NCBI RefSeq assembly: GCF_017751145.1
Contig: NZ_CP046640.1
Location: 1,840,137 to 1,904,136 of the forward strand
Direction of reading: 5' to 3'
Length of the DNA stretch: 64,000 nucleotides
Source: Iocasia fonsfrigidae
GTDB taxonomy: Bacteria > Bacillota > Halanaerobiia > Halanaerobiales > DTU029
In this document: one piece after another, positions 8,157-21,105 of the stretch
Numbering within the stretch: the stretch's first letter is position 1
How the letters are laid out: every line of letters starts with the position of its first letter
The notes under the pieces: generated by a model
Database searches by the model: none
What the model was told of the DNA's origin: nothing
The model's input: the letters and a program-made list of their open reading frames with translations, nothing else
Translations under genes and position numbers: made by a program

Positions 8157-8418
8157 CAAAATGTCAAGCATTAAATTAAAATTTCAATTTAATTTCTACT
8201 ATTGATTGTAGCTTATATCTCTATTAACATTGGTAACTAATTATTTTCAAAAAAGGTAATTCCTATAAAAATACTTGTAATTCATATTAAATTATATTAT
8301 GATATTTTTAATAGTCTGCTGACTGGAAATAAGCCAAAGCAATTAGAAATGTCCTTGATAAAGTAATTTTGAATCTAAAATGACTAAACAGTATAAGTTT
8401 ATTTTGGAGGTAATAATC

Positions 8419-9618
8419 GTGGTAGAAATAATTAAAAAGCTAAAACATCAAGTGGTTCAGGAAGCAAGAGAATTATCTAAAAGTAAGAATAGGATTGCAG
8501 AAAACAAGATACAATTACGTGGCCTGGAACAAATAAAATGGGCTTGGGATGCTGGTTTGAAAATAAACAGTATTATCATAAGTGATAATGAGGATCCAGC
8601 AGATTATAGGGGGATTCCATGTCCAATCTACCAAACTTCTAAGGGAATTTTAAAAAAGATTACTGGAACTAATTACTTAATTGAGAGTGTGGGAATTGCT
8701 GAAGGCCCTCCAATTAAAGGTGAGCTAGATGAATTTGTATTATTGTTGGATAATGTAAAAGACCACGGGAATATAGGAACTATTATTAGGTCTGGCATGG
8801 CATATGGAATTAAGGATTATCTGACCACTAGTAATGACCTTGATCCCTATATGCCTAAAACAATTGATGCTTCTCGTGGGACTAATTTCAAAGTATTTTT
8901 TAGAAGACATTCTCATCCCCAGGAGGCAGTTTCTTATCTTAAAGAAAAGGGGTATCAGATAATAGCTACTAGTCCACATGGGAAGTCATTACAATCAACC
9001 ATTAAACTGGATAAAAAACCAGTTGCATTAGTAGTAGGGAATGAAACATCAGGGGTTTCTGATGAAGTCCTAAAAGCAGCTGATCATATTGTTCAAATAC
9101 CTATGTATACAGGAGTAGAATCACTTAATGTAGGAGTGGCTACAGGAATTAGTATTTATGAATTACGCCTTAAGGAGGTTTTAACCATGTTAGCAGATAA
9201 AATTATGGCAAGTCTGGGGAGAGAAATCAATGTAACATCACAACTTATTAGAAAAGCATTTAATATTAAATTAAAGGAAATAAGTGAATATACTGGGGAT
9301 CATGTTATATTTTTAATGGTACTTAAACGAGAATTTCAAATGAATGAGGAGCAAATTGAAAAACAATTTGGATACTTTAGGAATAGTTTAAAAATATTTC
9401 TTAAGCCCTTATTTGAAAATAATTTAATAAAAAAAGAAAGAGATGAAATTGAAATTACTAAAACTGGTGAAGAGTTATTAGCTAAGTTGTGGCCTATTCA
9501 TGAAAAAACAGAAAACATATTATTACAGGAGTTTACCGAAAAAGAAAAGAAAGAATTGAGAAGATATTTAGGGAAAATTCAACAAAACTGTATAAAAGTA
9601 ATGAGATATAAAGCATAA
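8419..9618 (+). CDS. SpoU/TrmH-type RNA methyltransferase fused to MarR-like domain
   Basis: I chose GTG 8419 because TTTGGAGGTAATAATC precedes it; an upstream in-frame ATG at 8380 lacks a binding site. That gives 399 residues. Residues 1-100 resemble the SpoU substrate-binding domain. Residues 109-252 are the SPOUT catalytic domain with its three motifs: LLDNVKDHGNIGTIIRSG (about 109-126), ALVVGNETSGVSDE (203-216) and IPMYTGVESLNVGVATG (227-243, knotted SAM site). Residues 258-399 have no place in TrmH proteins and look like a MarR-type winged helix, including a wing-like ERDEIEITKTGEELL. The first domain predicts 2'-O-ribose methylation of rRNA or tRNA; some relatives give ribosome-drug resistance. 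No stop or frameshift separates the halves, so the fusion looks real. Confidence 0.8.
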   Translation: MVEIIKKLKHQVVQEARELSKSKNRIAENKIQLRGLEQIKWAWDAGLKINSIIISDNEDPADYRGIPCPIYQTSKGILKKITGTNYLIESVGIAEGPPIKGELDEFVLLLDNVKDHGNIGTIIRSGMAYGIKDYLTTSNDLDPYMPKTIDASRGTNFKVFFRRHSHPQEAVSYLKEKGYQIIATSPHGKSLQSTIKLDKKPVALVVGNETSGVSDEVLKAADHIVQIPMYTGVESLNVGVATGISIYELRLKEVLTMLADKIMASLGREINVTSQLIRKAFNIKLKEISEYTGDHVIFLMVLKREFQMNEEQIEKQFGYFRNSLKIFLKPLFENNLIKKERDEIEITKTGEELLAKLWPIHEKTENILLQEFTEKEKKELRRYLGKIQQNCIKVMRYKA

Positions 9619-9691
9619 GTTACAAATGTTTCTCTTTTTCTTTGTTTAGTTTAAGGATTAGGGTTTGCAGGATTGTCGATAATTTTGAAGT

Positions 9692-9880
9692 CCAACAAAT
9701 ATATTTACTTCCCTTGTCGTACACTAAGGAGTCCTGCCTTCGTTTACTGTCGAGAAATTGTCTTTCGGCTCACTGACTCTTCTTTTTATTACGCATGGTC
9801 GAGTCAGTATTAGGCCATCGAGGCCAAGTTCCATGCCTCCAGATAATTTCTAGTGTCGTCCAGTAAATATATTTGTCTGG
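9692..9880 (+). repeat. Structured repeat family A, copy 1 (with inserted hairpins)
   Basis: Outer arms ACAAATATATTTACT and AGTAAATATATTTGT, and inner arms AGAAATTGTCT (9752-9762) and AGATAATTTCT (9841-9851; one G-U pair), enclose the family motifs CTTGTCGT, GTCCTGCCT, TTACTGTCG and GTCGTCC. Compared with the other copies, about 57 bases are inserted in the apical loop. The insert has its own arms, ACTGACTC and GAGTCAGT, plus a GGCC-ATCGA-GGCC hairpin. A trailing element, GTTGATTAAG...GCACTTTGTTCT, follows at 9941-9972. The copy fills the gap between two + strand genes; no gene is seen in 9619-10127. Confidence 0.85.
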
Positions 9881-10020
9881 TTTATGATATTCTAAATAAC
9901 TTTGAGTAATAAATATTTTAAAATAAAGAAATTATTTTTTGTTGATTAAGTGGATGGTGAAGCACTTTGTTCTCTGAAAGAATTCGAGCAAATAGTGGAG
10001 TGGAGGAAAGGGAGTAATAT

Positions 10021-10049
10021 TTGACTTTAGTAAAGCTTTATATTATAAT
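10021..10049 (+). promoter_or_regulatory. Promoter of tetR-ABC operon
   Basis: TTGACT (10021-10026), 17 bases, TATAAT (10044-10049). The predicted start is near 10056, just before the palindromic operator at 10065-10088. Confidence 0.8.
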
Positions 10050-10064
10050 ATGACTTAAGATTCA

Positions 10065-10088
10065 TATGAACATGACTTCATGTTCATA
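10065..10088. promoter_or_regulatory. Palindromic operator for TetR-family regulator
   Basis: TATGAACATGA and TCATGTTCATA are perfect 11-bp arms with a CT centre, placed at about +10 to +33 of the operon promoter. Size and place fit a TetR-family autoregulatory operator, so the first gene probably represses the whole operon. Confidence 0.75.
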
Positions 10089-10127
10089 AAATATATACTT
10101 ATAGATAGAATAAAAGGAGTGCGGTAT

Positions 10128-10754
10128 ATGCCTAAAGAGACGTTTTTTAATCTGGTTAATGAAAAAAAAGAAAGGGTAATAGAAGCAGCTATAGATGAAT
10201 TTGCTCTAAGGCCGTATCATCAAGCCAGGATTACAGCTATTGCAGATAATGCCAGTATAGCAAAAGGTAGTTTTTACCAATATTTTGAGGATAAAAAAGA
10301 CCTTTTCAAATATATAATTGAATTGTCAGTTAATAAAAAATTGAAGTATATTAATTTAGATATGATAAAAAATAAGGATAAATATAGTTTCTTTCAATTA
10401 TTAAGGGAGGTATATTTAAGCGGCTTTCGTTTTGCTAAAAGACACCCTAAGTTACTTGCAGTTGCCTCAAAGCTAGCTAATAATAAAGAATTATACCGTG
10501 AAATATTTGGTGAATATAAAGACAAGAGTTTAGAATTTTTTTTGGAATTACTTGAGCAGGGTATAGTTGAAGGTGCAATAGATTCAAAAATTGACCCTGT
10601 ATTTGTTGCCAAGATGTTGACTAATATTAGTTATACATTAAGTGATTTTATATATGAAGATGGTGAAATAGATTTGAATAATATAGATGAATCCATGGAA
10701 ATTATTGATAAAATGCTTTATTTTATTGAAAATGGTCTCAAGAAAAGAGATTAA
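10128..10754 (+). CDS. TetR/AcrR-family transcriptional regulator
   Basis: The 208-residue protein has an N-terminal TetR helix-turn-helix (VIEAAIDEFA at about 16-25, then ITAIADNASIAKGSFYQYFE, recognition helix and the usual YxYF ending), followed by an all-helical ligand-binding domain. An upstream in-frame ATG at 10080 lies inside the operator, and AAAAGGAGTGCGGTAT precedes the ATG at 10128, so I use the latter. It is first in an apparent operon with an ABC transporter starting 16 bases downstream, and it probably controls that operon through the palindrome at 10065-10088. The inducer is unknown. Confidence 0.88.
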   Translation: MPKETFFNLVNEKKERVIEAAIDEFALRPYHQARITAIADNASIAKGSFYQYFEDKKDLFKYIIELSVNKKLKYINLDMIKNKDKYSFFQLLREVYLSGFRFAKRHPKLLAVASKLANNKELYREIFGEYKDKSLEFFLELLEQGIVEGAIDSKIDPVFVAKMLTNISYTLSDFIYEDGEIDLNNIDESMEIIDKMLYFIENGLKKRD

Positions 10755-10770
10755 TAGGGGGTCTGTAAAA

Positions 10771-11475
10771 ATGGCTTTATTGGAATTAAAAGCAGTCAAA
10801 AAGATATATCAGCAGGGGAAAATTGAGGTGCCTGCTCTAAGGGGAATTGATCTGACGGTAAATAAGGGTGAATTTACTACTGTTTTTGGTCCTTCTGGTT
10901 CAGGAAAGACTACGATGTTAAATATGATTGGCTGTCTTGATAAACCCAGCAGTGGTGAAATAAACTTCAATGGTCAGAATCTTAAAAAACTGGATAAAAA
11001 AGGTCTGGCTATGCTCAGGAGATATAACATTGGGTTTATCTTTCAAAGCTATAACTTAATTCCTGTTCTGACAGCCTATGAGAACGTAGAATTTGCCATT
11101 AGATTAGTTGATAAACACAGTAAAAAAGAAATTAGAGAACGGGTAATGAAAATACTGGCAGATGTTGGCCTTGACGGCTTAGAAAACAGGAGACCTAATG
11201 AGTTATCAGGTGGTCAGAAACAGCGGGTAGCAATAGCCCGGGCCCTGGTAAAAGAACCAAAGCTAATTCTGGCTGATGAACCATCTGCCAATCTGGACTC
11301 CAAAACAAGTGAAGAGGTACTGGAGGTAATGGTTAAGATGAATGAGGAACTGGGGACTACCTTTATTTTCTCTACCCATGATCCCCAGGTGATGGATTAT
11401 GCCCATCGTATGCTGGAAATTCGAGATGGTTTAATATCCCAGGATAAAAGGGGGGAAAGTTATGTTTCTGACTAA
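10771..11475 (+). CDS. ABC transporter ATPase, LolD/MacB type
   Basis: This 234-residue protein is the energy-coupling subunit of a Type VII (MacB/LolCDE) ABC system. Walker A GPSGSGKTT (about 40-48), Q-loop FQSYNLIPVLTAYEN, signature LSGGQKQR, Walker B LILADEPSANLDS and the switch histidine in STHD are all intact. The ATG at 10771 follows AATAGGGGGTCTG; a longer frame starts earlier inside tetR but has no binding site. The end overlaps the first permease by 14 bases, implying translational coupling. It is cytosolic and acts with the two FtsX-type permeases downstream. Confidence 0.92.
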   Translation: MALLELKAVKKIYQQGKIEVPALRGIDLTVNKGEFTTVFGPSGSGKTTMLNMIGCLDKPSSGEINFNGQNLKKLDKKGLAMLRRYNIGFIFQSYNLIPVLTAYENVEFAIRLVDKHSKKEIRERVMKILADVGLDGLENRRPNELSGGQKQRVAIARALVKEPKLILADEPSANLDSKTSEEVLEVMVKMNEELGTTFIFSTHDPQVMDYAHRMLEIRDGLISQDKRGESYVSD

Positions 11476-12700
11476 ACTGGCTTTTAAGAATTTGGTACGC
11501 CACCGTAATCGAACCCTGATTACTGCCCTTATTATTGCTTTTGCGATATTTTTCTTTATTTTAATGGATTCTTTGATTGGTGGTATGACTGAAATGTCTT
11601 ATGAGAACATTATTGAATATGAGGCTAGTCATCTCCAGGTAGTAAGTCATGAGTACCGGGAAGAGGAAGATGAACTACCTTTGAAAAACCTGTTGACTGT
11701 TGATGAACAGCTAATAGGTGTAGTCAAGAGGGTTGCAGGGTACCAGGCTAGTTTAGCAGAGTTGAATTTTCAGGCCAGGTTAAATGATGGGATTAATGAA
11801 CTCCCTGTAATAGGCAAAGGGGTTAATCCTGATAAGTTATTAGATGTATTTGAACTGCAGGATAAGTTTGTGGAAGGTTCAATTTTTTCGTCAGGGGAGT
11901 ACAAGGCCGTTATGGGAAAGAGACTGGCTGATTTGCTTAAATTAAAACAGGGTGATTATATTACACTGCTGGTGAAAGATAAAAATGAAACCTTTAATAC
12001 AATTGATGTAGAGATATCAGGTCTGCTTCATACAGGTAATCCTAAGGTTAATAGTAGTATTGTTTATCTTCCCCTTAATATTGCTCAACAGGCCCTTAAT
12101 GTCGATAATCAGGTGAGTAAGCTAATAGTCAGATTAGAAAATAAAGATTTGGCCGAAATCTCCGGCCATCTGCTGGCAGAAAATTTAAAAACTTTAGATA
12201 ACAACCTTGAGGTGATCTTATGGGGAGACCTGGAAGCGGTATCAGTAGCCGGGGCTAAGCAGATGGGGAATCAAATGATTCTAGCTATTATATTATTGAT
12301 TGCAGCAATTGCTATTATTAATACAGTAATTCTGGCTGCCCTGGAAAGAATGAAAGAGATCGGTATGATGAAGGCTATGGGTTTACAAAGAAAAGAGATT
12401 ATTTATACCTTTGTTCTGGAATCAACTGGAATTGGTATGCTGGGAGGTTTAATTGGTTTATTATTAGGGGGTATTGGTGTCTGGATATTTTCAAAATATG
12501 GAATAGACTGGGGTGCTATGATAGGTATGGATATGTCTGCTTTTGGGATGCCAATTATCGGGAAAATGTATGGTGTCTGGAATCTAGGGACTTTTCTACT
12601 GGTCTTTGGCTTTGGGGTATTTGTATCGTTGTTGTCCAGTATTTTACCAGCTTATTGGGCAGCCAGTAAAGACCCGGTTGAGGCTATTTATCATCAATAA
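11462..12700 (+). CDS. ABC permease, FtsX/LolC-E type (first)
   Basis: This 412-residue MacB_PCD plus FtsX-domain permease has one N-terminal helix (about 17-40, after FLTKLAFKNLVRHRNRT), a large extracytoplasmic domain (about 45-265), and three C-terminal helices (about 270-295, 320-345, 375-400) with the coupling-helix motif ERMKEIGMMKAMGLQ. This topology belongs to transporters that extract or push lipids, lipoproteins or drugs rather than carry them through a channel. It overlaps the ATPase gene and is followed 12 bases later by a second, related permease, as in lolCDE, so a heterodimer is likely. Confidence 0.88.
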   Translation: MFLTKLAFKNLVRHRNRTLITALIIAFAIFFFILMDSLIGGMTEMSYENIIEYEASHLQVVSHEYREEEDELPLKNLLTVDEQLIGVVKRVAGYQASLAELNFQARLNDGINELPVIGKGVNPDKLLDVFELQDKFVEGSIFSSGEYKAVMGKRLADLLKLKQGDYITLLVKDKNETFNTIDVEISGLLHTGNPKVNSSIVYLPLNIAQQALNVDNQVSKLIVRLENKDLAEISGHLLAENLKTLDNNLEVILWGDLEAVSVAGAKQMGNQMILAIILLIAAIAIINTVILAALERMKEIGMMKAMGLQRKEIIYTFVLESTGIGMLGGLIGLLLGGIGVWIFSKYGIDWGAMIGMDMSAFGMPIIGKMYGVWNLGTFLLVFGFGVFVSLLSSILPAYWAASKDPVEAIYHQ

Positions 12701-12712
12701 GGGGGTAGAGAA

Positions 12713-13966
12713 ATGAGCTTTCTTGCTAAAATTGCCTTTAAAAACCTGTTTAGACATAAATTAAGGACGATTGTCTCCATTATGGCTATTGTTTTTGCGG
12801 TTATGATTGTTGTTTTTGCCAGAGGGTATATAGTTGGCTTGATAGATTCAACTTTTGCTGATCATATTCAATATAATTCTGGACACATCAAGATAGTTGC
12901 TCAGGAATACCAGCAGCAGGAGCGTATCCTGCCCCTCATTTATCCGGTGGATGGCTTTAATGGTCAGGAATTGAATGGGATGATTGAAAGTTTAAAGGAA
13001 ATTGATGAAGTCGAGAGGGTAGTCCCCAGGTTAAAGTATGGGGCTATGGTTAGTACAGAAGATGAATTAGTAACCATGATCGGCTGGGGTGTTGACCCAA
13101 CTCAAGAAATTGAGTTTACTGATATTGAGGATAAACTGCTTAAAGGCAGAATGGTACAAAAAGGTCAGCTGGAAGTCGTTATGGGAACAGCCCTGTTAAA
13201 AAAGTTAAATCGTCAGCTTGGTGATAAAGTAACTATTTTATCCAATACAGCCTTTAACTCTTTAAAGGGTGTTACCTTCAAAATAGTTGGCAGTATAGAA
13301 ACAGGGATTAAAATGCTTGATGAAATTGTCTTCTATCTACCTCTTGACCAGGCTCAAGACATATTATATATGGAAGATCAGGTGACCGAACTCTTGCTGG
13401 TAACAGAGAACAGGAACCTAGTTGAACAGGTATTACCTGATGTTAAAGATTTACTGACCAGGAACGGGGCTGCAGATAGGTATCTGGCCCTGGGTTACAA
13501 AGAGACCAGTGACCTCTTACCCTACATGGAAATGGCTAAGTTAATTTATAATCAGATCTATATCTTTCTGGTACTATTAGCCTGTATTGTAGTTGTTAAT
13601 ACTATGATCATGATTGTTAAAGAACGGACCAAGGAAATCGGGATGATGTCTGCCTTGGGACTGGAAAGTAAGGATATTTTATGGCTCTTTATTATCGAGG
13701 GTGGAATTATGGGGGTTATTGGTAGCTTTTTTGGGGCTTTATTTGGTTCACTGCTCAATGCCTATCTATCTGTAAGGGGTATTGATTTTAGTTCTGCATT
13801 GACTGGATTTAGTTCAGATATTATAATCAAATCAATTATTTATCCAGTTTCTTCAACCGGAAATACTATCTATGCCTTTGTGTTAGGTGTTATTATTGTT
13901 ACTATCGCCTGTATTATTCCAGCCCGTAGGGCGGCTAAACTAGAACCTACTGAGGCTATGCGATAA
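12713..13966 (+). CDS. ABC permease, FtsX/LolC-E type (second)
   Basis: This 417-residue paralogue of the preceding permease has the same plan: helix at about 17-40, a periplasmic domain to about 275, and three helices in the C-terminal FtsX domain with KERTKEIGMMSALGLE. The start ATG at 12713 follows AAGGGGGTAGAGAA. The two permeases differ enough in sequence to be distinct subunits. In diderm Proteobacteria this gene order (ATPase plus two FtsX permeases) delivers lipoproteins to LolA, and a LolA-like gene follows here. The cargo cannot be decided from sequence. Confidence 0.88.
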   Translation: MSFLAKIAFKNLFRHKLRTIVSIMAIVFAVMIVVFARGYIVGLIDSTFADHIQYNSGHIKIVAQEYQQQERILPLIYPVDGFNGQELNGMIESLKEIDEVERVVPRLKYGAMVSTEDELVTMIGWGVDPTQEIEFTDIEDKLLKGRMVQKGQLEVVMGTALLKKLNRQLGDKVTILSNTAFNSLKGVTFKIVGSIETGIKMLDEIVFYLPLDQAQDILYMEDQVTELLLVTENRNLVEQVLPDVKDLLTRNGAADRYLALGYKETSDLLPYMEMAKLIYNQIYIFLVLLACIVVVNTMIMIVKERTKEIGMMSALGLESKDILWLFIIEGGIMGVIGSFFGALFGSLLNAYLSVRGIDFSSALTGFSSDIIIKSIIYPVSSTGNTIYAFVLGVIIVTIACIIPARRAAKLEPTEAMR

Positions 13967-14014
13967 GATGTAGGAATTACTATTATTACTAAAAAGAAAA
14001 GGGGCTATTAAAAG

Positions 14015-14755
14015 GTGAAAAACATAATTTTACTATTTTTTTGTTTTTTTACGGTAGTTGTTATTATTACTCCTGTTAGTGCTATTACTGCTGAAGAGAT
14101 TATCAATCAAAGGGATAAAAACGAATATCTTGAAGCAGCTAGAGTAGAGTCAGAGATGCTTATTGTTAATGGTAATCGGAAAATGTCCAAGACAATGGAG
14201 TCTTTTATTGAGGGGAATAATGCTTTATCCCATTTTACTAATCCACGTGATAGGGGAACTAAGTTTTTAAAGAGGGGTGATGACCTCTGGATGTTCTTTC
14301 CTGATGCTGAAGATATAGTAAAGATCTCCGGTCATATGCTTAACCAGGGTATGATGGGTAGTGATTTTTCATATCAGGATATGATGGAATCTGATAAATT
14401 GACAGATTTATATAATTTTGAACTGATTGGTGAGGAAGAGTTGCATGGACGTCAGTGTTATGTTTTAGAGGGTATAGCTAAGGAAAATAAAGAGGTTTCT
14501 TATTATCGACGCAGGTCCTGGATCGATAAGGAGAGATTTATTGGTCTTAAGGAAGAACTATATGCCCAGAGCGGTCGTTTATTAAAAATAATGAATGTTA
14601 ATAGGGTTGAGCAGATAGATGACCGCTGGTATCCAATTGAATCAGTAATGGAAAATAAACTGAGGAAGAATACCAGTACTGATTTTATTATTAAATCAAT
14701 AGAATTCAACCCTGGAATACCTGCTGGAACCTTTAGTCTGGAAAATATGCAGTAA
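14015..14755 (+). CDS. LolA-like outer membrane lipoprotein-sorting protein
   Basis: The 246-residue exported protein has a signal peptide (MKNIILLFFC..., likely cleaved after VSA at about residue 23). The mature chain resembles the COG2834 / LolA-like fold: early 'MSKTMESFIEGN', a strand with 'FLKRGDDLWMFFPDAEDIVK' and 'YELxG'-type turns, then 'WYPIESVMENK'. Members are periplasmic carriers with a hydrophobic cavity for lipid or acyl groups. The start is GTG 14015, preceded by AAAAGGGG at about 13998. It comes 48 bases after the second permease, so it probably belongs to the same operon and receives the transporter's cargo. Confidence 0.8.
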   Translation: MKNIILLFFCFFTVVVIITPVSAITAEEIINQRDKNEYLEAARVESEMLIVNGNRKMSKTMESFIEGNNALSHFTNPRDRGTKFLKRGDDLWMFFPDAEDIVKISGHMLNQGMMGSDFSYQDMMESDKLTDLYNFELIGEEELHGRQCYVLEGIAKENKEVSYYRRRSWIDKERFIGLKEELYAQSGRLLKIMNVNRVEQIDDRWYPIESVMENKLRKNTSTDFIIKSIEFNPGIPAGTFSLENMQ

Positions 14756-14780
14756 TTAGCCCTGATAAACTACTAGAAAC

Positions 14781-14893
14781 TGTTCGAAAAGTATCAGTAT
14801 ATACCCGTCGGGGATTATATATCCCTTCACTCAACGGTAACACCTTAACTTCGCTTAGGGATATATAATCCCCTGTTTATACCTTTTCGAACA
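14781..14893. repeat. Palindromic repeat family B, full-length copy
   Basis: Nested arms: TGTTCGAAAAGTAT with ATACCTTTTCGAACA on the outside, and GGGGATTATATATCCCT (14811-14827) with AGGGATATATAATCCCC inside, around a loop of about 30 bases (CAACGGTAACACCTTAAC...). It sits between the LolA-like gene and the barrel gene. A shorter copy in opposite orientation is at 54807-54869. It might attenuate transcription within the operon or be a miniature mobile element. Confidence 0.8.
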
Positions 14894-14948
14894 CACACTA
14901 CTAATGAAATATCTATCATAAGAAAGATTAGATGAAGGGATGATATAA

Positions 14949-16082
14949 ATGCATGAAACTCCTATTTTAATAATAGTTCTCTCTCTAGTCTTTGTTTTTT
15001 CTACACAGTCGTGTGCAGTTGAGGTCGGGGGGGAACTTAAGGTTTTATTATCAGGTGTATTACAGGATGATGGAAGCCTTGATAGTGAGGTTATAGAGAG
15101 TTTAAATCTGGAGTTTTTTCTTCCGCGAATAGCTAATAATGAGATCCGTTATGAATTTAAAATAGATAAGCCCTTACAGGATTTACAGGAGGGGGAGGAA
15201 CTTAGTTATTTTGCCAAAAAACTCTATCTTAAACATCGTTTTGATGGCTTTCACTTGACATTAGGGCGGCAGCCTGTTTCCTGGTCTTTTGGTTCTCTGC
15301 TTAATCCCGTAGACTATACTTTGGGTTCAGTTGCTCTGGATGAAGAGAATAATAGCAAATATACAGATGCCCTGGAAATGTATATTCCACTTAACTGGAA
15401 TTCCAGCCTAGCTATTGTGAGTTCTTTTCCTGCTGGGTTTAGCAGTGATTTTGATAAGATGAAATGGGGAATCAGGACCAGGGTAGGGGTAAGTGGTTAT
15501 GATTTAACTATAAATTATGTACGGGAACCAGAGTTAATATTTGATGAAAATCCCTTTAATGACATTATAACAGGGGTATCCTCAGTTATTCCTAAAAAAA
15601 GGGCTGGTTTTACAATCAAGGGTGATTTGAAAGACTTAGGGGTCTATGGCTCTTATGGGCATTATTTTGATGAAGGAGTAGATGGGAGTAATAGTTATCT
15701 GCTGGGGGTAGATTATAGTTATAATCTCAACTATTATACAACAGTTAATATGCAGTTAGAATACCTGGCAATTGAGTTAAATAGTCTGGAAACAGTACAG
15801 GACTTATTATCAGGGGTGGATATTTTAAATGAGAGAATTAATTTATTAACTGGGAGTATGACCTATCCTATTGATGATTTTTCTTCAATATCATTGACAA
15901 CAATGCTAAATCTGGATGATAGTAGTTTTGTTTTAATACCTGGTTATCAAAGTACCTTGCCTGGTAATCTTGACCTTGATATTAGTTCTTCAATTTTCCT
16001 GGGTGAAGAGGATTCCCTTTTCAGAGCTAAAGGGTTAATGCCTAAAGCTGTTACAACAATAAGTTTGAGTTATCCATTTTAA
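14949..16082 (+). CDS. Putative outer-membrane beta-barrel protein
   Basis: The 377-residue protein has a signal peptide (hydrophobic residues 5-22, probable cleavage near SCA/VEVGGEL). The rest has alternating beta-strand character with many aromatic girdle residues (FHLTLGRQPVSWSFG, YGSYGHYFDEG, YSYNLNYYTTVNMQLEYLAI), and it ends ...ISLSYPF. A terminal phenylalanine is the usual outer-membrane barrel insertion signal. GRQPVSW resembles the pattern of DUF1302/porin-like proteins. The ATG follows GAAGGGATGATATAA. Lying behind the LolA-like gene, it may be the outer-membrane end of the same export route. It could instead be a stand-alone porin, since repeat B separates them. Confidence 0.7.
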   Translation: MHETPILIIVLSLVFVFSTQSCAVEVGGELKVLLSGVLQDDGSLDSEVIESLNLEFFLPRIANNEIRYEFKIDKPLQDLQEGEELSYFAKKLYLKHRFDGFHLTLGRQPVSWSFGSLLNPVDYTLGSVALDEENNSKYTDALEMYIPLNWNSSLAIVSSFPAGFSSDFDKMKWGIRTRVGVSGYDLTINYVREPELIFDENPFNDIITGVSSVIPKKRAGFTIKGDLKDLGVYGSYGHYFDEGVDGSNSYLLGVDYSYNLNYYTTVNMQLEYLAIELNSLETVQDLLSGVDILNERINLLTGSMTYPIDDFSSISLTTMLNLDDSSFVLIPGYQSTLPGNLDLDISSSIFLGEEDSLFRAKGLMPKAVTTISLSYPF

Positions 16083-16120
16083 CTGGCAATTAATAAATTA
16101 AACCAGGATTTCACAAATAC

Positions 16121-16149
16121 TTGACTTTAATACTTAAATCTATTATTAT
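16121..16149 (+). promoter_or_regulatory. Promoter of aminotransferase gene with overlapping dyad
   Basis: TTGACT (16121-16126), 17 bases, TATTAT (16144-16149). A perfect dyad, TATTATTA-TAG-TAATAATA (16141-16159), covers the -10 box and start region and could be an operator. Confidence 0.65.
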
Positions 16150-16236
16150 AGTAATAATATAATTTATTTTGTCAACAATTTAATTATGTAAAAGTGTTAT
16201 TATTAATTAGTAAAAAATAAAAAGGAGAGAAAAATA

Positions 16237-17418
16237 GTGAGCAATATATTCTCAGAACGCATAATAGATGTTCCTAAGTCATTTATCAGGGAAATATTAA
16301 AAGTAGCTGTAGAACCAGATATAATATCCTTTGCTGGGGGGCTGCCCAATAGAGATCTTTTTCCAGTATCAGCTCTTCAGGAAGCAAGTAATGATGTTTT
16401 TGATTCAGCAGGAAAAGAGGTATTACAATATAGTAATACAGAAGGATACCTCCCTTTAAGGGAATATATTGCCCAAAGATATGAAACAAAAAAAGGTATT
16501 AAGGTATCCCCTGAAAATATACTTATTACCAATGGTTCACAACAGGGATTAGATCTCCTTGCTAAGGTATTTTTAAATCAAGGGGATGAAATTATAATTG
16601 AGGAACCTGGGTATCTAGGAGCTATTCAGGCTTTTTCTATATATAGTCCATCATTTAGAACAGTTCAACTCTCTGATGAGGGTTTAAATATACAGGAACT
16701 GACAGGGGTACTTAATACGTATAATCCTAAATTAATGTACACAGTCCCTAATTTTCAAAATCCTTCAGGTATTTCTTATGCAAAGTCTAATAGGGAAGCT
16801 GTAGCCAGTCTTATCAAAGATAAAGATATTTATTTAATAGAAGACGATCCCTATGGTGAGCTGAGGTATATCGGGGAGGATATAATCTCATTTAAAAAAA
16901 TATTACCAGAACAAACTATACTGTTAGGGTCTTTTTCAAAAGTAGTGGCCCCTTCCTTTAGAATTGGTTGGGTTGTGGCCCCAGATTTTATTATGGAAAA
17001 ACTTATTATTGCCAAACAGGCCTCAGATCTACACACTAATTATATTAGTCAGAGGATTCTAGATCAGTATCTAAGTGACAATGATCTTAATGAACATATT
17101 TCCTTGATTAAAGATACTTATAACAGACAGAGGAAAGCAATGTTAAATAGTATTACAAAGTATTTCTCTGATGAAATTAAATGTACTAAACCTGAAGGGG
17201 GAATGTTTTTGTGGGTAACCTTACCAGATGACATACCAGCTATGGAATTTTTTGATCTGGCAATTCAAAATAAAGTTGCCTTTGTACCAGGTGACCCTTT
17301 CTATATAAACAAGAAAAATACTAGTACTTTAAGGTTAAATTATTCATGTGTAGATGAAAAGAACATTGAAATGGGAATAAAAAGATTAGCTGATACATTT
17401 GCCAGAGTAATAAAGTAA
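16237..17418 (+). CDS. PLP-dependent aminotransferase, class I/II (LysN/2-aminoadipate type)
   Basis: This 393-residue fold-type I aminotransferase contains ISFAGGLPNRDLFP (about 28-41), ITNGSQQGLDLLAK (95-108, phosphate/ring binding), YTVPNFQNPSGISY (170-183, the NP motif), IEDDPYGELRY (aspartate to the PLP nitrogen), and SFSKVVAPSFRIGW with the Schiff-base lysine (about 231-244). The closest named relatives are multi-substrate 2-aminoadipate / aromatic / branched-chain transaminases; the exact substrate is open. GTG 16237 follows AAGGAGAGAAAAATA. It is a stand-alone gene with its own promoter. Confidence 0.88.
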   Translation: MSNIFSERIIDVPKSFIREILKVAVEPDIISFAGGLPNRDLFPVSALQEASNDVFDSAGKEVLQYSNTEGYLPLREYIAQRYETKKGIKVSPENILITNGSQQGLDLLAKVFLNQGDEIIIEEPGYLGAIQAFSIYSPSFRTVQLSDEGLNIQELTGVLNTYNPKLMYTVPNFQNPSGISYAKSNREAVASLIKDKDIYLIEDDPYGELRYIGEDIISFKKILPEQTILLGSFSKVVAPSFRIGWVVAPDFIMEKLIIAKQASDLHTNYISQRILDQYLSDNDLNEHISLIKDTYNRQRKAMLNSITKYFSDEIKCTKPEGGMFLWVTLPDDIPAMEFFDLAIQNKVAFVPGDPFYINKKNTSTLRLNYSCVDEKNIEMGIKRLADTFARVIK

Positions 17419-17488
17419 AAGTTTACTATTGATGCCATCATAAGCATTGAGCTGTTAAACAATAAACATAAAGAAAGAGCTGAGACTA

Positions 17489-17875
17489 TTGAAAAAAATA
17501 TTAGTCTTTTTACATGTATTTGTTAGTCTAGGAGCTTTATATGGTGGTATGGTTGCCATTAGAAATCCATATAATCCTTTAGGGGCTTCTGTAGAACTTT
17601 TAGAAGTGTCTCCCTTTAGTAATTTCTTTATTCCTGGTGTTATTTTATTTGTAATAGTTGGTCTTGGTAATATATTTGCTGCACTCTGTTTAAAATATCA
17701 ATTTAAATTCAGCTTATTGATTAGTAATCTTTTAGGTTGGGCGCTAATCGTTTGGATTATAGTGCAGTGCATAATGATGAGAACAGTTAATTTTTTGCAT
17801 ATAATCTATTTTGTAATTGGATTAGTTGTGGTACTAATTTCAATAAAGTTAATCTTGGATTCGATAGACAACTGA
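17489..17875 (+). CDS. Small four-helix membrane protein, unknown function
   Basis: The 128-residue protein is almost entirely hydrophobic, with about four predicted helices (5-24, 46-66, 73-93, 100-123) and short loops; a conserved-looking NPYNPLG lies in the first loop. I know it only as an uncharacterised membrane protein type. The start is TTG 17489 after AAGAAAGAGCTGAG, a weak binding site; no ATG fits better. It follows the aminotransferase by 70 bases and may be co-transcribed. Confidence 0.6.
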   Translation: MKKILVFLHVFVSLGALYGGMVAIRNPYNPLGASVELLEVSPFSNFFIPGVILFVIVGLGNIFAALCLKYQFKFSLLISNLLGWALIVWIIVQCIMMRTVNFLHIIYFVIGLVVVLISIKLILDSIDN

Positions 17876-18145
17876 AATTCTTTATTAAGAGCATGTTGAA
17901 AAGGAGTTAGAAAAATTAAAATAATTTCTAAAAAAAAGAAGGAGATTTTCAAAAGATAACGAATATAATAATAAATGGAGGAAATATTCGGGAATATAAA
18001 TATCTATAATATAATACTTTAAGTGTATATGGCTATAATTATAACAATTAAATATTAAAAGCTTTTTAGTAAAATATAAGTTAATAAGGAATATTTAAAA
18101 CTATAAACTATATATATAAAATATAAAGTGATTAGTTAATTATTT

Positions 18146-18297
18146 TACTTAAAACTAAAACGGTTTAGTAAGTCGAATACTGTAAATGAAGTGGAAATAA
18201 TGTAGAAAAAAGGGACTGGCATATGTTCTTAATTTTACCAGCAATTAGGATATTATTCATTTATTTTATACCAATAATTCTGGAATTTTATAGTTAA
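18146..18297 (+). pseudogene. Decayed copy 1 of a small membrane protein gene with its leader
   Basis: The leader (18146-18222) contains the hairpin ACTAAA-ACGG-TTTAGT and ...GAATACTGTA...GTGGA. The frame from 18223 (MFLILPAIRILFIYFIPIIL) parallels the better copy at 18612 (MVLILLAVFAILFIHLIPMI) but stops at 18297. Similarity resumes past the stop, so the copy is mutated. Together with 18412-18500 and 18533-18758 it makes a three-unit decayed array. Confidence 0.55.
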
Positions 18298-18411
18298 GTT
18301 AAAAGATTTGAATATTTTTATATTATGGATTAGATGATTGCTCCCTTGGTTAGCTTGAGGAATTTGCTGAGGACGTTTCCTATATAACTACTATATATAA
18401 ATTATTAGTTG

Positions 18412-18500
18412 CTTACTCTTGCTCGAAACTAAAGCGATTTAGTAAATCAAATACTGTAAAAGAGGTGGAAGATATGCAGAAAAAAAGGACTGGCAGATAC
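18412..18500 (+). repeat. Repeat unit 2 of the small-gene array (leader only)
   Basis: This has the same leader as units 1 and 3, with hairpin ACTAAA-GCGA-TTTAGT (loop changed to a GNRA-type tetraloop, stem kept), then GAGGTGG and ATGCAGAAAAAAAGGACTGGC. It breaks off after 10 codons. No membrane-protein body follows. Confidence 0.6.
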
Positions 18501-18532
18501 TAAATATAAATTATAAGATGATAAGCAATTTT

Positions 18533-18758
18533 CTTACTTAAAACTAAAACGGTTTAGTAAATCGAATATTGTAGAAGAGGTGGAGATTGTGTAGAAAAAA
18601 AGTACTGGCATATGGTTTTAATTTTATTAGCAGTATTTGCGATACTATTTATTCATCTTATACCGATGATCTGGGGATTTACGTTTAATTTTAAGAATTT
18701 GAATATTTTATATATAGGGCTTGCTTTCGCAATGTTTGTTATAAAAGCAAAATTTTGA
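18533..18758 (+). pseudogene. Repeat unit 3: small hydrophobic protein gene, start disrupted
   Basis: The leader hairpin ACTAAA-ACGG-TTTAGT (18544-18559) and GAGGTGG are followed by a frame encoding VEKKYWHMVLILLAVFAILF... to the stop at 18756-18758, 48 residues from the internal ATG at 18612. Two helices flank 'WGFTFNFKNLNILY'. The expected start beside the ribosome binding site reads GTG-TAG, as if one base were lost; units 1 and 2 resemble it there. Similar tiny proteins accompany sodium/solute symporters (an association from memory of the family), but no symporter is adjacent. It could still be expressed from the internal ATG. Confidence 0.5.
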
Positions 18759-18839
18759 TTATTAATAAAGTTTGGAAACAAAGTTTTTCATTAGTTAAAA
18801 GAAATTATGTGTCTTTAAAATTATGGATAACTTTAAAGA

Positions 18840-18968
18840 CCGACAAATATATTTACTTTCCTTGTCGTGTGCTATGGTGTCCTACCTCCGCTTACTGTCG
18901 AGAAATTATCCTCCGGCGTCCTGCCTGCGGATAATTTCTAGAGTCGTCCAGTAAATATATTTGTCTGG
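18840..18968 (+). repeat. Structured repeat family A, copy 2 (type copy)
   Basis: Outer arms ACAAATATATTTACT (18843-18857) and AGTAAATATATTTGT (18950-18964) pair perfectly, as do inner arms AGAAATTATCC (18901-18911) and GGATAATTTCT (18929-18939). Loops carry CTTGTCGT, GTGTCCTACCTCCG, TTACTGTCG, CCGGCGTCCTGCCT and AGAGTCGTCC. A second hairpin, AAAGTGGTTT (18997-19006) with AAACCACTTT (19045-19054), follows and is conserved in copies 1 and 4. No gene is visible between 18969 and 19395 apart from this. Confidence 0.9.
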
Positions 18969-19395
18969 TTTATGATAATTAGTTAACTTTGTGCAAAAAG
19001 TGGTTTTAAGAATAAATATAATTGTTGATTAAGTTTGGATCGCCAAACCACTTTGTTCTACTATCCTTGATTTTACTTAAATAAAATTGCTTGTGAGAAT
19101 TGAGGGAGATATGGCCTTCTCCTGGTTTTTAAGTTTTATATTATAGGTCTATACTATGAGAAATTCAAAATATGTAATTATCTTTATCTTTATCATTTGC
19201 TAAAAATTAAAGGGGGGGAGTTCAAATTTAGTAATATAGCGGCAAATGTAAAGATATTATAGACTGCTTTTATCTATGGGCTTAAAGGTAATTTTAAGAT
19301 TAAGGAAATAAAGAGACTTATTCTTACTTATCTGTTAAGCAAAGATAAATCAGTCAATATATTAAAACTAGAAACAGAAAACGAGGAGGATCTAC

Positions 19396-21105
19396 ATGAA
19401 AAAATTTCTTATTGCTATGTTGCTTGTTTTAGCTTTAACTGCTTCTGCATTTGCTGCTTCTTTTGCAGATGTGCCTTCAAGTCACTGGGCATACCAGGCA
19501 GTTAATAAACTTATTGCTTCTGGTATTCTTTCCGGATATCCAGATGGGACTTTCAAAGGCCAGAATAATCTGAGCCGTTATGAAATCGCTGTTGTTGTGG
19601 CCCGTGTTCTTGAGGAAATTGAAGCAGAACAGGCAGCTTTAGCTGACAAAGTTGAAGATGCTGCTAACAATTTGAGTATTGGTGAAGCTCAACAGGTTAA
19701 TCAGATCGTTAAATCGCTTGTGGCTAAAAACACTGGTGAGGAATTAAGTAATCAACAGGCTGACGAAGTGCGCAGTATAGTCCAGGCTCTGACTTATGAA
19801 TTCAAGCCAGAACTTACTGACTTAGGTGTTGCTGTTGATGAGTTAGACAGCAGATTAACTGCTGTAGAAGCAGATGTTAAGGGTTTGAAAGCAGATAAAC
19901 CTAAAATTACTTTCGGTGCCTGGGGACGTGCTATTGTTGCTCCAGGGATGGAGCCTGATGATGGAGACACTCGTCCTCAACAGACTGTATCCTGGGGTTG
20001 GGATAACGCCCGTATCGGTTGGACTATGAAAGGTGAAAGTGCAGATGGAAACATAGGTATCCATATTGATAGCAATGCTGATGGCGGTGGATTTGGCCAC
20101 CAGGACCAACAGAAAGTATGGGCAAAACCTTCTGAAAATATTACTCTTGAAGTAGGACCATCAGTATTTTTTGATAAATTACGTGGTAATGCTGCCTATG
20201 GTGCCTGGAACTGGATGCGTTTTAACACACAGGACGATGAAGATGCTATCTTCGTTCGTGGTAAAGCAGGTAAGGGAGACGGAAAGACCCCTTATCGCAG
20301 CGCTGAAGCCCAGGATGGTATAAATGGTGGTGCCCTAGTTCATTATGATAAAGACAATTTAACTTTATATGCTTCCTTTGATCAGAGTGATGGTGGTACT
20401 GTTGTGGCGGAAGAAAAAGATTCTAGTGGTACGGTTATTCAGAAGGAAGTAAAAGAAAAAGAGTATACTACTGCTAAGATGTTTAAACGTGGTCAGTATG
20501 GTGTTGGCTATGCTACTGATTTTGGATTGGTCCGTGCTCAGTACATAGGAAAAGCAACATATGCAAAAGACCCAAGTGATGATGAGATGGAGGAATATGG
20601 TGTTTTTAATGCTGCAGTAAGATTTGACAAGCTGGCATCTGATTTCACCCTTGACGTTGGTTTGTTTGTTCCAACTGATGATCCTGAAGATTGTGGAGAA
20701 TATAAAGGGTTAAATGCTTATGCTAATTATACTGGTGTAGATAAGTGGACTTTGCATAGTACAGTTCAAACCAAGTTTGATAAAGCAGATGTAGATGGTG
20801 ATGAAGATTTAGCTTTTCAACTTGGTTTTGGGGGCGACTATGACTTAGCTGATGGTGCCTATACTATTAATACCGATTTACGTTATTTCAATGAAAACTG
20901 GATGTACGATGAAAAGAGATTTGAAGAATATGGGGGAGATGGCGATCAAATTGGTTTCTTAGTAGGTATTGCTAAAAACTTAGAAAATGGTAAAGTTGGT
21001 ATAGGTCTGGAATACACTACTCATTCATTCAATGGTCATGATAGTACATATGATGGAGACGAGGAGAACTGGGCATTTCCTATCGTTGTTGAGTACTCGT
21101 TCTAA
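19396..21105 (+). CDS. SLH-domain outer membrane porin (OmpM-like)
   Basis: The 569-residue protein has a signal peptide (residues 1-20, cleavage ASAFA/ASF). One SLH domain (about 22-72; FADVPSSHWAYQAVNKLIAS, then GYPDGTFKG and LSRYEIA) would bind pyruvylated or polyamine-modified cell-wall polymer. A coiled coil follows (about 75-165), then a beta-barrel (about 168-569) ending IVVEYSF with a terminal phenylalanine. This SLH/coil/barrel design is the outer-membrane tether and porin of diderm Firmicutes. The start follows ACGAGGAGGATCTAC. Codons are richer in G/C than the neighbours', as expected for an abundant protein, and the gene has a strong terminator. Confidence 0.9.
   Translation: MKKFLIAMLLVLALTASAFAASFADVPSSHWAYQAVNKLIASGILSGYPDGTFKGQNNLSRYEIAVVVARVLEEIEAEQAALADKVEDAANNLSIGEAQQVNQIVKSLVAKNTGEELSNQQADEVRSIVQALTYEFKPELTDLGVAVDELDSRLTAVEADVKGLKADKPKITFGAWGRAIVAPGMEPDDGDTRPQQTVSWGWDNARIGWTMKGESADGNIGIHIDSNADGGGFGHQDQQKVWAKPSENITLEVGPSVFFDKLRGNAAYGAWNWMRFNTQDDEDAIFVRGKAGKGDGKTPYRSAEAQDGINGGALVHYDKDNLTLYASFDQSDGGTVVAEEKDSSGTVIQKEVKEKEYTTAKMFKRGQYGVGYATDFGLVRAQYIGKATYAKDPSDDEMEEYGVFNAAVRFDKLASDFTLDVGLFVPTDDPEDCGEYKGLNAYANYTGVDKWTLHSTVQTKFDKADVDGDEDLAFQLGFGGDYDLADGAYTINTDLRYFNENWMYDEKRFEEYGGDGDQIGFLVGIAKNLENGKVGIGLEYTTHSFNGHDSTYDGDEENWAFPIVVEYSF

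Follow-up and report, generated by a model that had tools for sequence, protein, structure and literature searches.

A conserved ABC transporter-LolA_like-barrel cassette of Iocasia fonsfrigidae, a candidate inducible exporter of lipid or other hydrophobic molecules

In Castellaniella, the AmeABCD system combines a DUF1302 outer-membrane protein, a DUF1329 protein of the LolA superfamily, AmeC and an HAE3 pump of the RND type, and its deletion lowers monoterpene tolerance (PMC6394551). Porphyromonas gingivalis carries a TetR-MMPL-LolA_like-hypothetical cluster that is among the genes most strongly induced when hemin or iron is scarce (PMC10470040, PMC10434189), and the Borrelia genes BBJ23-29 encode a MacB/LolE-like ATP-binding cassette (ABC) transporter, a LolA-like protein and an outer-membrane barrel, for which export of a non-polar ligand has been proposed (PMC13078400). 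In diderm Firmicutes, the movement of lipids and lipoproteins to the outer membrane is unsettled; a LolA-LolCDE cluster of Halanaerobiales, lacking LolB, has been named a likely Lol system, and no LolA was reported for Negativicutes (PMC5007114). Here we describe a cassette in Iocasia fonsfrigidae, located at 10021-16082 of a stretch of 64,000 nucleotides (the window, from whose first base all positions are counted). On the plus strand throughout, it comprises a promoter and genes for a TetR regulator, a LolD-like ATPase, two FtsX/LolE-like permeases, a LolA_like (PF17131) carrier and an outer-membrane barrel; position 10021 is the start of the -35 hexamer of the promoter match and 16082 the last base of the barrel stop codon. 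We infer, with a probability of roughly 0.55, that this cassette is an inducible exporter and that a lipid or another hydrophobic molecule is what it moves outwards, a reading favoured because of the analogies with AmeABCD, the P. gingivalis cluster and Borrelia BBJ23-29.

Between the six genes lie, in order, a gap of 16 nt, an overlap of 14 nt and gaps of 12, 48 and 193 nt. The LolD/MacB-type ATPase (10771-11475, with a corrected start at about 10771) contains ABC_tran (PF00005, 1e-35) and scores 232.3 bits with the LolD equivalog TIGR02211, which is below the cut-off of 307.75 yet the best result among all NCBIfam models; MJ0796 and LolD are among its closest relatives in the PDB. Both permeases (11462-12700 and 12713-13966) contain MacB_PCD and FtsX domains and reach 106 and 138 bits, respectively, with the LolC/E equivalog TIGR02212, below its cut-off of 362. 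A profile of the permeases finds LolF (E 6e-37), LolE (3e-31) and MacB (1e-16) as the nearest solved structures, a ranking by sequence score rather than by tree, and on this measure the engine is LolF/LolE-like and, among type VII ABC transporters, falls nearest to the LolC/E/F branch. One permease found elsewhere among the relatives (G031:C88:3103-4281) is clearly more LolC/E-like than those of the window, at 223 bits; with G008:C106 and G019:C36, also more LolE-like, it is a candidate component of a true Lol system.

The carrier (14015-14755, from a corrected GTG start at 14015) matches PF17131 at 197.1 bits (E 2.8e-58; curated cut-off 30). It is presumably periplasmic, since a signal peptide can be recognized by eye at its N-terminus and a lipobox cysteine is lacking. 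Its AlphaFold2 (AF2) model (mean predicted local distance difference test score, pLDDT, 90.1) is a single LolA-type domain whose best match is 4z48, titled DUF1329 (Z 27.0, root-mean-square deviation (rmsd) 2.5, 224 residues aligned), followed by 3buu (Z 26.1), 3bk5 (Z 25.7) and P. gingivalis LolA3 (9tp6, Z 25.5), with Escherichia coli LolA (1ua8) far below (Z 11.9, rmsd 3.3, 160 aligned). As modelled, the carrier is of the DUF1329/LolA3 type and far less like LolA, and PF03548, the LolA family, has no match in the whole genome. The barrel (14949-16082) has no Pfam family above cut-off (best Porin_4, E 0.042) and no match in a PDB sequence search. Its AF2 model (pLDDT 87.9) has 18 strands, a signal peptide is visible by eye, and the protein ends in SLSYPF with an aromatic last residue. 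The model fits OccK2 (Z 23.2, rmsd 2.8, 289 aligned) as well as it fits AlgE (Z 23.0, rmsd 3.4, 305 aligned), so that the predicted fold is OprD/AlgE-like, a common fold that by itself shows no function.

The carrier and the barrel are best understood in the light of their relatives. We searched 61 genomes (the organism's own and others of its family, order, class and phylum), 49 of them good, and found PF17131 in 59, including all 49 good ones, with eight copies in I. fonsfrigidae alone. Neighbourhoods were read for 137 PF17131 genes among the matches listed, from 135 stretches, with PF17131 matches inside frames of 739-825 aa sampled only once; in relatives, gene calls came from a basic longest-open-reading-frame script and labels from our own profiles, so that start positions and the occasional label may be in error. 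ABC permeases lie upstream of 51 of these carriers, and a gene of one family, identified as MMPL by Pfam checks of two members, lies upstream of 57 and downstream of 13, the remaining 16 being of other types or cut. A homologous carrier-barrel pair thus adjoins MMPL/RND transporters at 70 of the 137 carriers listed, six of them in I. fonsfrigidae, and the barrel directly follows the carrier in 37/51 ABC-type loci and, among the MMPL-type loci, in 53/57 with the transporter upstream and 11/13 with it downstream. The ABC-type and MMPL-type barrels are themselves homologous (99.9%, E 1.7e-32, against 2.5% for a control barrel from the window). Carrier and barrel co-evolve: their distances correlate with r 0.85 over 113 pairs (permutation maximum 0.06), and this holds within each engine type (0.87 for 38 ABC-type pairs, 0.89 for 67 MMPL-type pairs). 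The carrier and barrel trees each separate ABC from MMPL loci with one change (shuffled labels need 31 and 24 or more). Support for a split that unites all 51 ABC-type carriers is low (0.594); in a more careful carrier tree, which took 48 of the 134 rows, the close ABC clade has a support of 98/100. We tentatively propose that carrier and barrel form an engine-independent delivery module, coupled in evolution either to proton-driven MMPL/RND or to ATP-driven LolCDE-type engines. Among the papers listed in our literature searches, none describes a carrier-barrel pair common to ABC and MMPL engines.

Gene order around the ABC-type carriers is also conserved. Among 45 close loci, 40 have an intact ATPase-permease-permease-carrier set, which in 33 continues into the barrel, and 24 of the 45 show all six genes in order. 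In a separate scan of named genomes, 309 relatives were found and the best 80 of them analysed; they include Halanaerobiia, digester Bacillota metagenome-assembled genomes (MAGs), Atribacterota, Aerophobetes, Elusimicrobia, WOR-3 and a Spirochaetaceae MAG, with many contigs being short and some bins possibly wrong. A carrier was called in 75 of these best 80, and 57 have ATPase-permease-permease-carrier, 45 the barrel as well and 30 all six genes. The two genome sets overlap, and their counts are not independent of each other; the recurrence across many genomes places the arrangement far from chance. The carrier-barrel gap has a median of 46.5 nt and an upper quartile of 72.75 in relatives (36 pairs). 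In the window it is wide, 193 nt, because a palindromic hairpin repeat of about 120 nt (14780-14900; -42.6 kcal/mol, z -7.65) sits inside it; the remaining 73 nt or so fall within the range of the relatives. With 55 full-length and partial matches across the genome, the repeat is most likely an insertion, possibly an element resembling a miniature inverted-repeat transposable element, and its dispersal rules it out as a regulator of the system.

The regulator gene also belongs to this conserved pattern. A sigma-70-type promoter, TTGACT-17 nt-TATAAT (10021-10049, plus strand), ranks as a consensus match among the two best-scoring promoter-like sequences in 9500-17000, and two tandem palindromes (10049-10087) overlie it: the first, TATGACTTAAGATTCATA, at 10049-10066, and the second, with perfect 10-nt arms and a 2-nt spacer, at 10066-10087, just 3' of the -10 hexamer. 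The TetR gene (10128-10754, plus strand; PF00440, TetR_N, E 3e-11) probably starts at ATG 10128 rather than at 10080, to judge from the ribosome-binding site aaaggag and from orthologues opening with MPKxTFFNL; the product begins MPKETFFNL and is presumably a repressor. Among TetR genes whose products open with PKxTFFN, palindromes of the ATGA[AC]..[GT]TCAT type occur in 23 of 33 promoters (52 upstream regions before identical ones were removed), compared with a mean of 0.87 and a maximum of 5 in shuffles and with 3/55 for the other TetR genes of these loci; the motif was defined after viewing palindromes in the same loci, and the 23/33 is thus not independent of that choice. The TetR gene lies directly upstream of the cassette in 26 of 39 determinable loci. 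A MalT-like LuxR regulator takes its place at one locus (L139) and, judged by cluster, at another (L143). The earlier note on this DNA, made from its letters, had described a co-directional TetR gene, a Lol-like ABC engine, a LolA-like periplasmic carrier and an outer-membrane barrel under inducible TetR control. Pfam and the structural models recover all six genes where it placed them, with LolF and LolE as the closest solved permeases, a LolA fold for the carrier and an 18-strand partner for it; the conserved operator of the TetR subfamily agrees with the proposed control, and the synteny survey that the note advised, run here in Halanaerobiia and relatives, yields one conserved gene order.

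The DNA-binding part of the TetR protein resembles 3vok, the heme regulator HrtR, over residues 1-98. The HrtR operator is an ATGAC...GTCAT palindrome like that of the window. HrtR-like heme sensing is a lead at most, as the match is confined to residues 1-98 and the alignment lacks a conserved histidine in the helix that carries the heme histidine in HrtR. Identity with the fatty-acid regulator FadR is rejected, since its model gives 57 bits where the cut-off is 200.

Taken as an exporter, the cassette could work as follows. TetR would sit on the tandem palindromes over the promoter, an arrangement backed by operator conservation, and would repress it until released by an inducer. The ABC engine would then use ATP to lift a greasy cargo from the inner membrane, and the LolA_like half-barrel, a fold predicted with confidence, would bind the cargo and ferry it through the periplasm. 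The carrier would dock on the co-evolving 18-strand barrel, through which the cargo may exit to or across the outer membrane. The cassette would be powered by an ABC engine and be sister to the MMPL/RND-LolA_like-barrel cassettes in the same genomes, which share a homologous carrier and barrel, mostly in that order, and differ in having an MMPL engine and MarR or TetR regulators.

We regard AmeABCD as offering the best functional analogy. As in the window, a carrier and a dedicated outer-membrane protein serve one inner-membrane engine, with remote family links between the parts; by contrast, AmeABCD has an RND engine, the additional protein AmeC and longer AmeA and AmeB. The window has an ABC engine instead of an RND/MMPL one, and its barrel is not of the DUF1302 family. 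That family is reached by barrels of MMPL-type loci (E down to 1e-12; over cut-off in 21/61 genomes) and by one of 56 relatives (E 0.0023). DUF1329 is matched by 52 of 56 carrier rows at E up to 1, the best at 8.4e-7. Porphyromonas PG1178-1181 is likewise an inducible TetR-MMPL-LolA_like-hypothetical cluster, unlike the window in its MMPL engine, and Porphyromonas LolA3 (PGN0947), possibly the product of PG1179, is among the nearest solved folds of the window carrier. Borrelia BBJ23-29 shares the MacB/LolE-like ABC transporter, the LolA-like protein and an outer-membrane barrel but differs by a homodimeric permease, TPR chaperones and an Omp85-type barrel. A second locus of I. fonsfrigidae (L052; G000:C1, about 3395700-3400300), with a TPR protein, an ATPase, a single permease, a LolA_like protein and a 344-aa protein, recalls the Borrelia genes, and similar sets occur in three other genomes (G012, G054 and G057). 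An outlier carrier-barrel-ABC cluster (L162, in G042) contains three TPR-family members and stands beside genes whose N-termini carry motifs resembling those of a ketosynthase and a thioesterase; such neighbours possibly hint at a lipid-like cargo.

Several observations weigh against this reading. Seven of the 40 intact ATPase-permease-permease-carrier sets lack an adjoining barrel, and the solutes known for OprD-type channels are mostly polar. The window barrel has no match to DUF1302 (PF06980), the window carrier's match to DUF1329 reaches no better than E 0.012, and the solved permeases nearest to those of the window, LolF and LolE, are true lipoprotein transporters. In the careful tree, only 42% of bootstrap replicates unite the MMPL carriers, and six ABC outlier carriers stand apart from the main ABC clade, so that carriers may have switched engines repeatedly. 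Finally, whereas 44 permease pairs have a carrier, about 10 occur with neither carrier nor barrel (the script gave 12, from which we removed L144, whose carrier the caller had missed, and L127, which is the first half of a tandem duplicate; three more sets are cut by contig ends, and L276 lies close to one). The engine can therefore also stand alone. The earlier note had named ABC genes lacking the LolA-like and barrel genes as the finding that would speak against it, and relatives show this in part. One such set (L269) has a TetR of the same kind as the window's; together with L261, L262 and L266 it belongs to a group of TetR-ATPase-permease-permease, ATPase-permease-permease or permease-permease sets, one of which is followed by an FxsA-like gene.

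A lipoprotein route is the alternative closest to the published suggestion for Halanaerobiales (PMC5007114): a LolCDE-like complex would extract lipoproteins, the LolA_like protein would chaperone and perhaps insert them, and the barrel would serve as outer-membrane docking or exit site. The nearest solved permeases, the ATPase's proximity to LolD, Lnt matches in 55/61 genomes and the missing PF03548, which leaves no better LolA known in this genome, are what such a route would have, and the window shares with LolCDE/LolF-LolA-LolB an ATPase, FtsX-fold permeases and a LolA-fold carrier. It differs in its PF17131 carrier, its dedicated 18-strand barrel, its TetR control, unusual for a housekeeping route, its scores below the lolCE and LolD cut-offs and its patchy occurrence. 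All components score below the cut-offs of the Lol equivalogs, no permease in any of the 61 genomes exceeds that for lolCE, and the permease is present in 38 of the 49 good genomes and missing from 11. Five of these 11 (G009, G014, G020, G021 and G027) have an Lnt match and no lolCE match at 1e-10, G014 being in one contig with an Lnt match below the curated cut-off, and G021 and G027 keeping an ABC-type carrier whose permease may have been lost to assembly gaps. The carrier, moreover, is of a family common to MMPL pumps and resembles LolA3, which in P. gingivalis is without the arginine of LolA and shows only weak binding to LolB (PMC13103446) and whose deletion in Flavobacterium johnsoniae was reported to cause no phenotype (PMC11885536). 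The main text of PMC5007114 does not contain the words TetR, MMPL or DUF1302. We consequently lower a housekeeping Lol route, on the grounds of carrier type, MMPL-paired carriers and permease gaps among good genomes, to an unlikely explanation: of the Lol-like route proposed in the earlier note, the engine, the LolA-fold carrier and the barrel partner stand, and lipoprotein transport recedes.

Less likely still is a MacB/HrtB-like efflux or envelope-stress transporter, in which the LolA_like protein would sense or adapt in the manner of RseB, with the barrel a general porin carried along. The MacB_PCD domains, the similarity of the carrier to RseB/MucB (53 of 56 carrier rows at E up to 1), the solo TetR-ATPase-permease-permease cassettes and the partial likeness of TetR to 3vok (HrtR) would fit it. 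RseB, however, has two domains and the carrier model a single LolA-type one, carrier and barrel co-evolve and stay adjacent, and a search confined to the cassette proteins found no membrane-fusion or TolC domain, as expected of MacAB-TolC partners, and no sigma or anti-sigma gene. Import, or retrograde lipid return in an Mla-like direction, would use the same parts, since the sequence gives no direction and the barrel fold is common to uptake porins; the engine is, however, homologous to LolC/E-type permeases, and type VII ABC transporters with such permeases are exporters or extractors, which makes this reading very improbable.

The surroundings of the cassette hold further repeats and genes. 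A second dispersed repeat family, with 82 matches in the genome, flanks the region on both sides (9672-9889 and 18820-18977), and an Rfam scan of 9500-19500 returned no match. Upstream, a single 412-aa frame (8380-9618) encodes a SpoU-type RNA methylase whose C-terminal part is weakly winged-helix/MarR-like. At four loci of relatives (L113, L116, L118 and L120) the ABC cassette lies near rplI- and dnaB-like genes, labelled from N-terminal sequence and cluster; the window cassette lies elsewhere.

If the cassette is one engine version of a carrier-barrel export module, the system proposed as the Lol route of Halanaerobiales would be an inducible exporter of lipid or other hydrophobic molecules, and diderm Firmicutes would still be without a known lipoprotein route. 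Such a delivery module would define a class of trans-envelope exporters that rely on a shuttle and need neither adaptor duct nor LolB. The Lol pathway would be a specialized relative of this class, and LolCDE-type and MMPL-type transport would be linked through a common carrier family. If this holds, the conserved, operator-controlled operon in culturable Halanaerobium would offer a direct way to the cargo.

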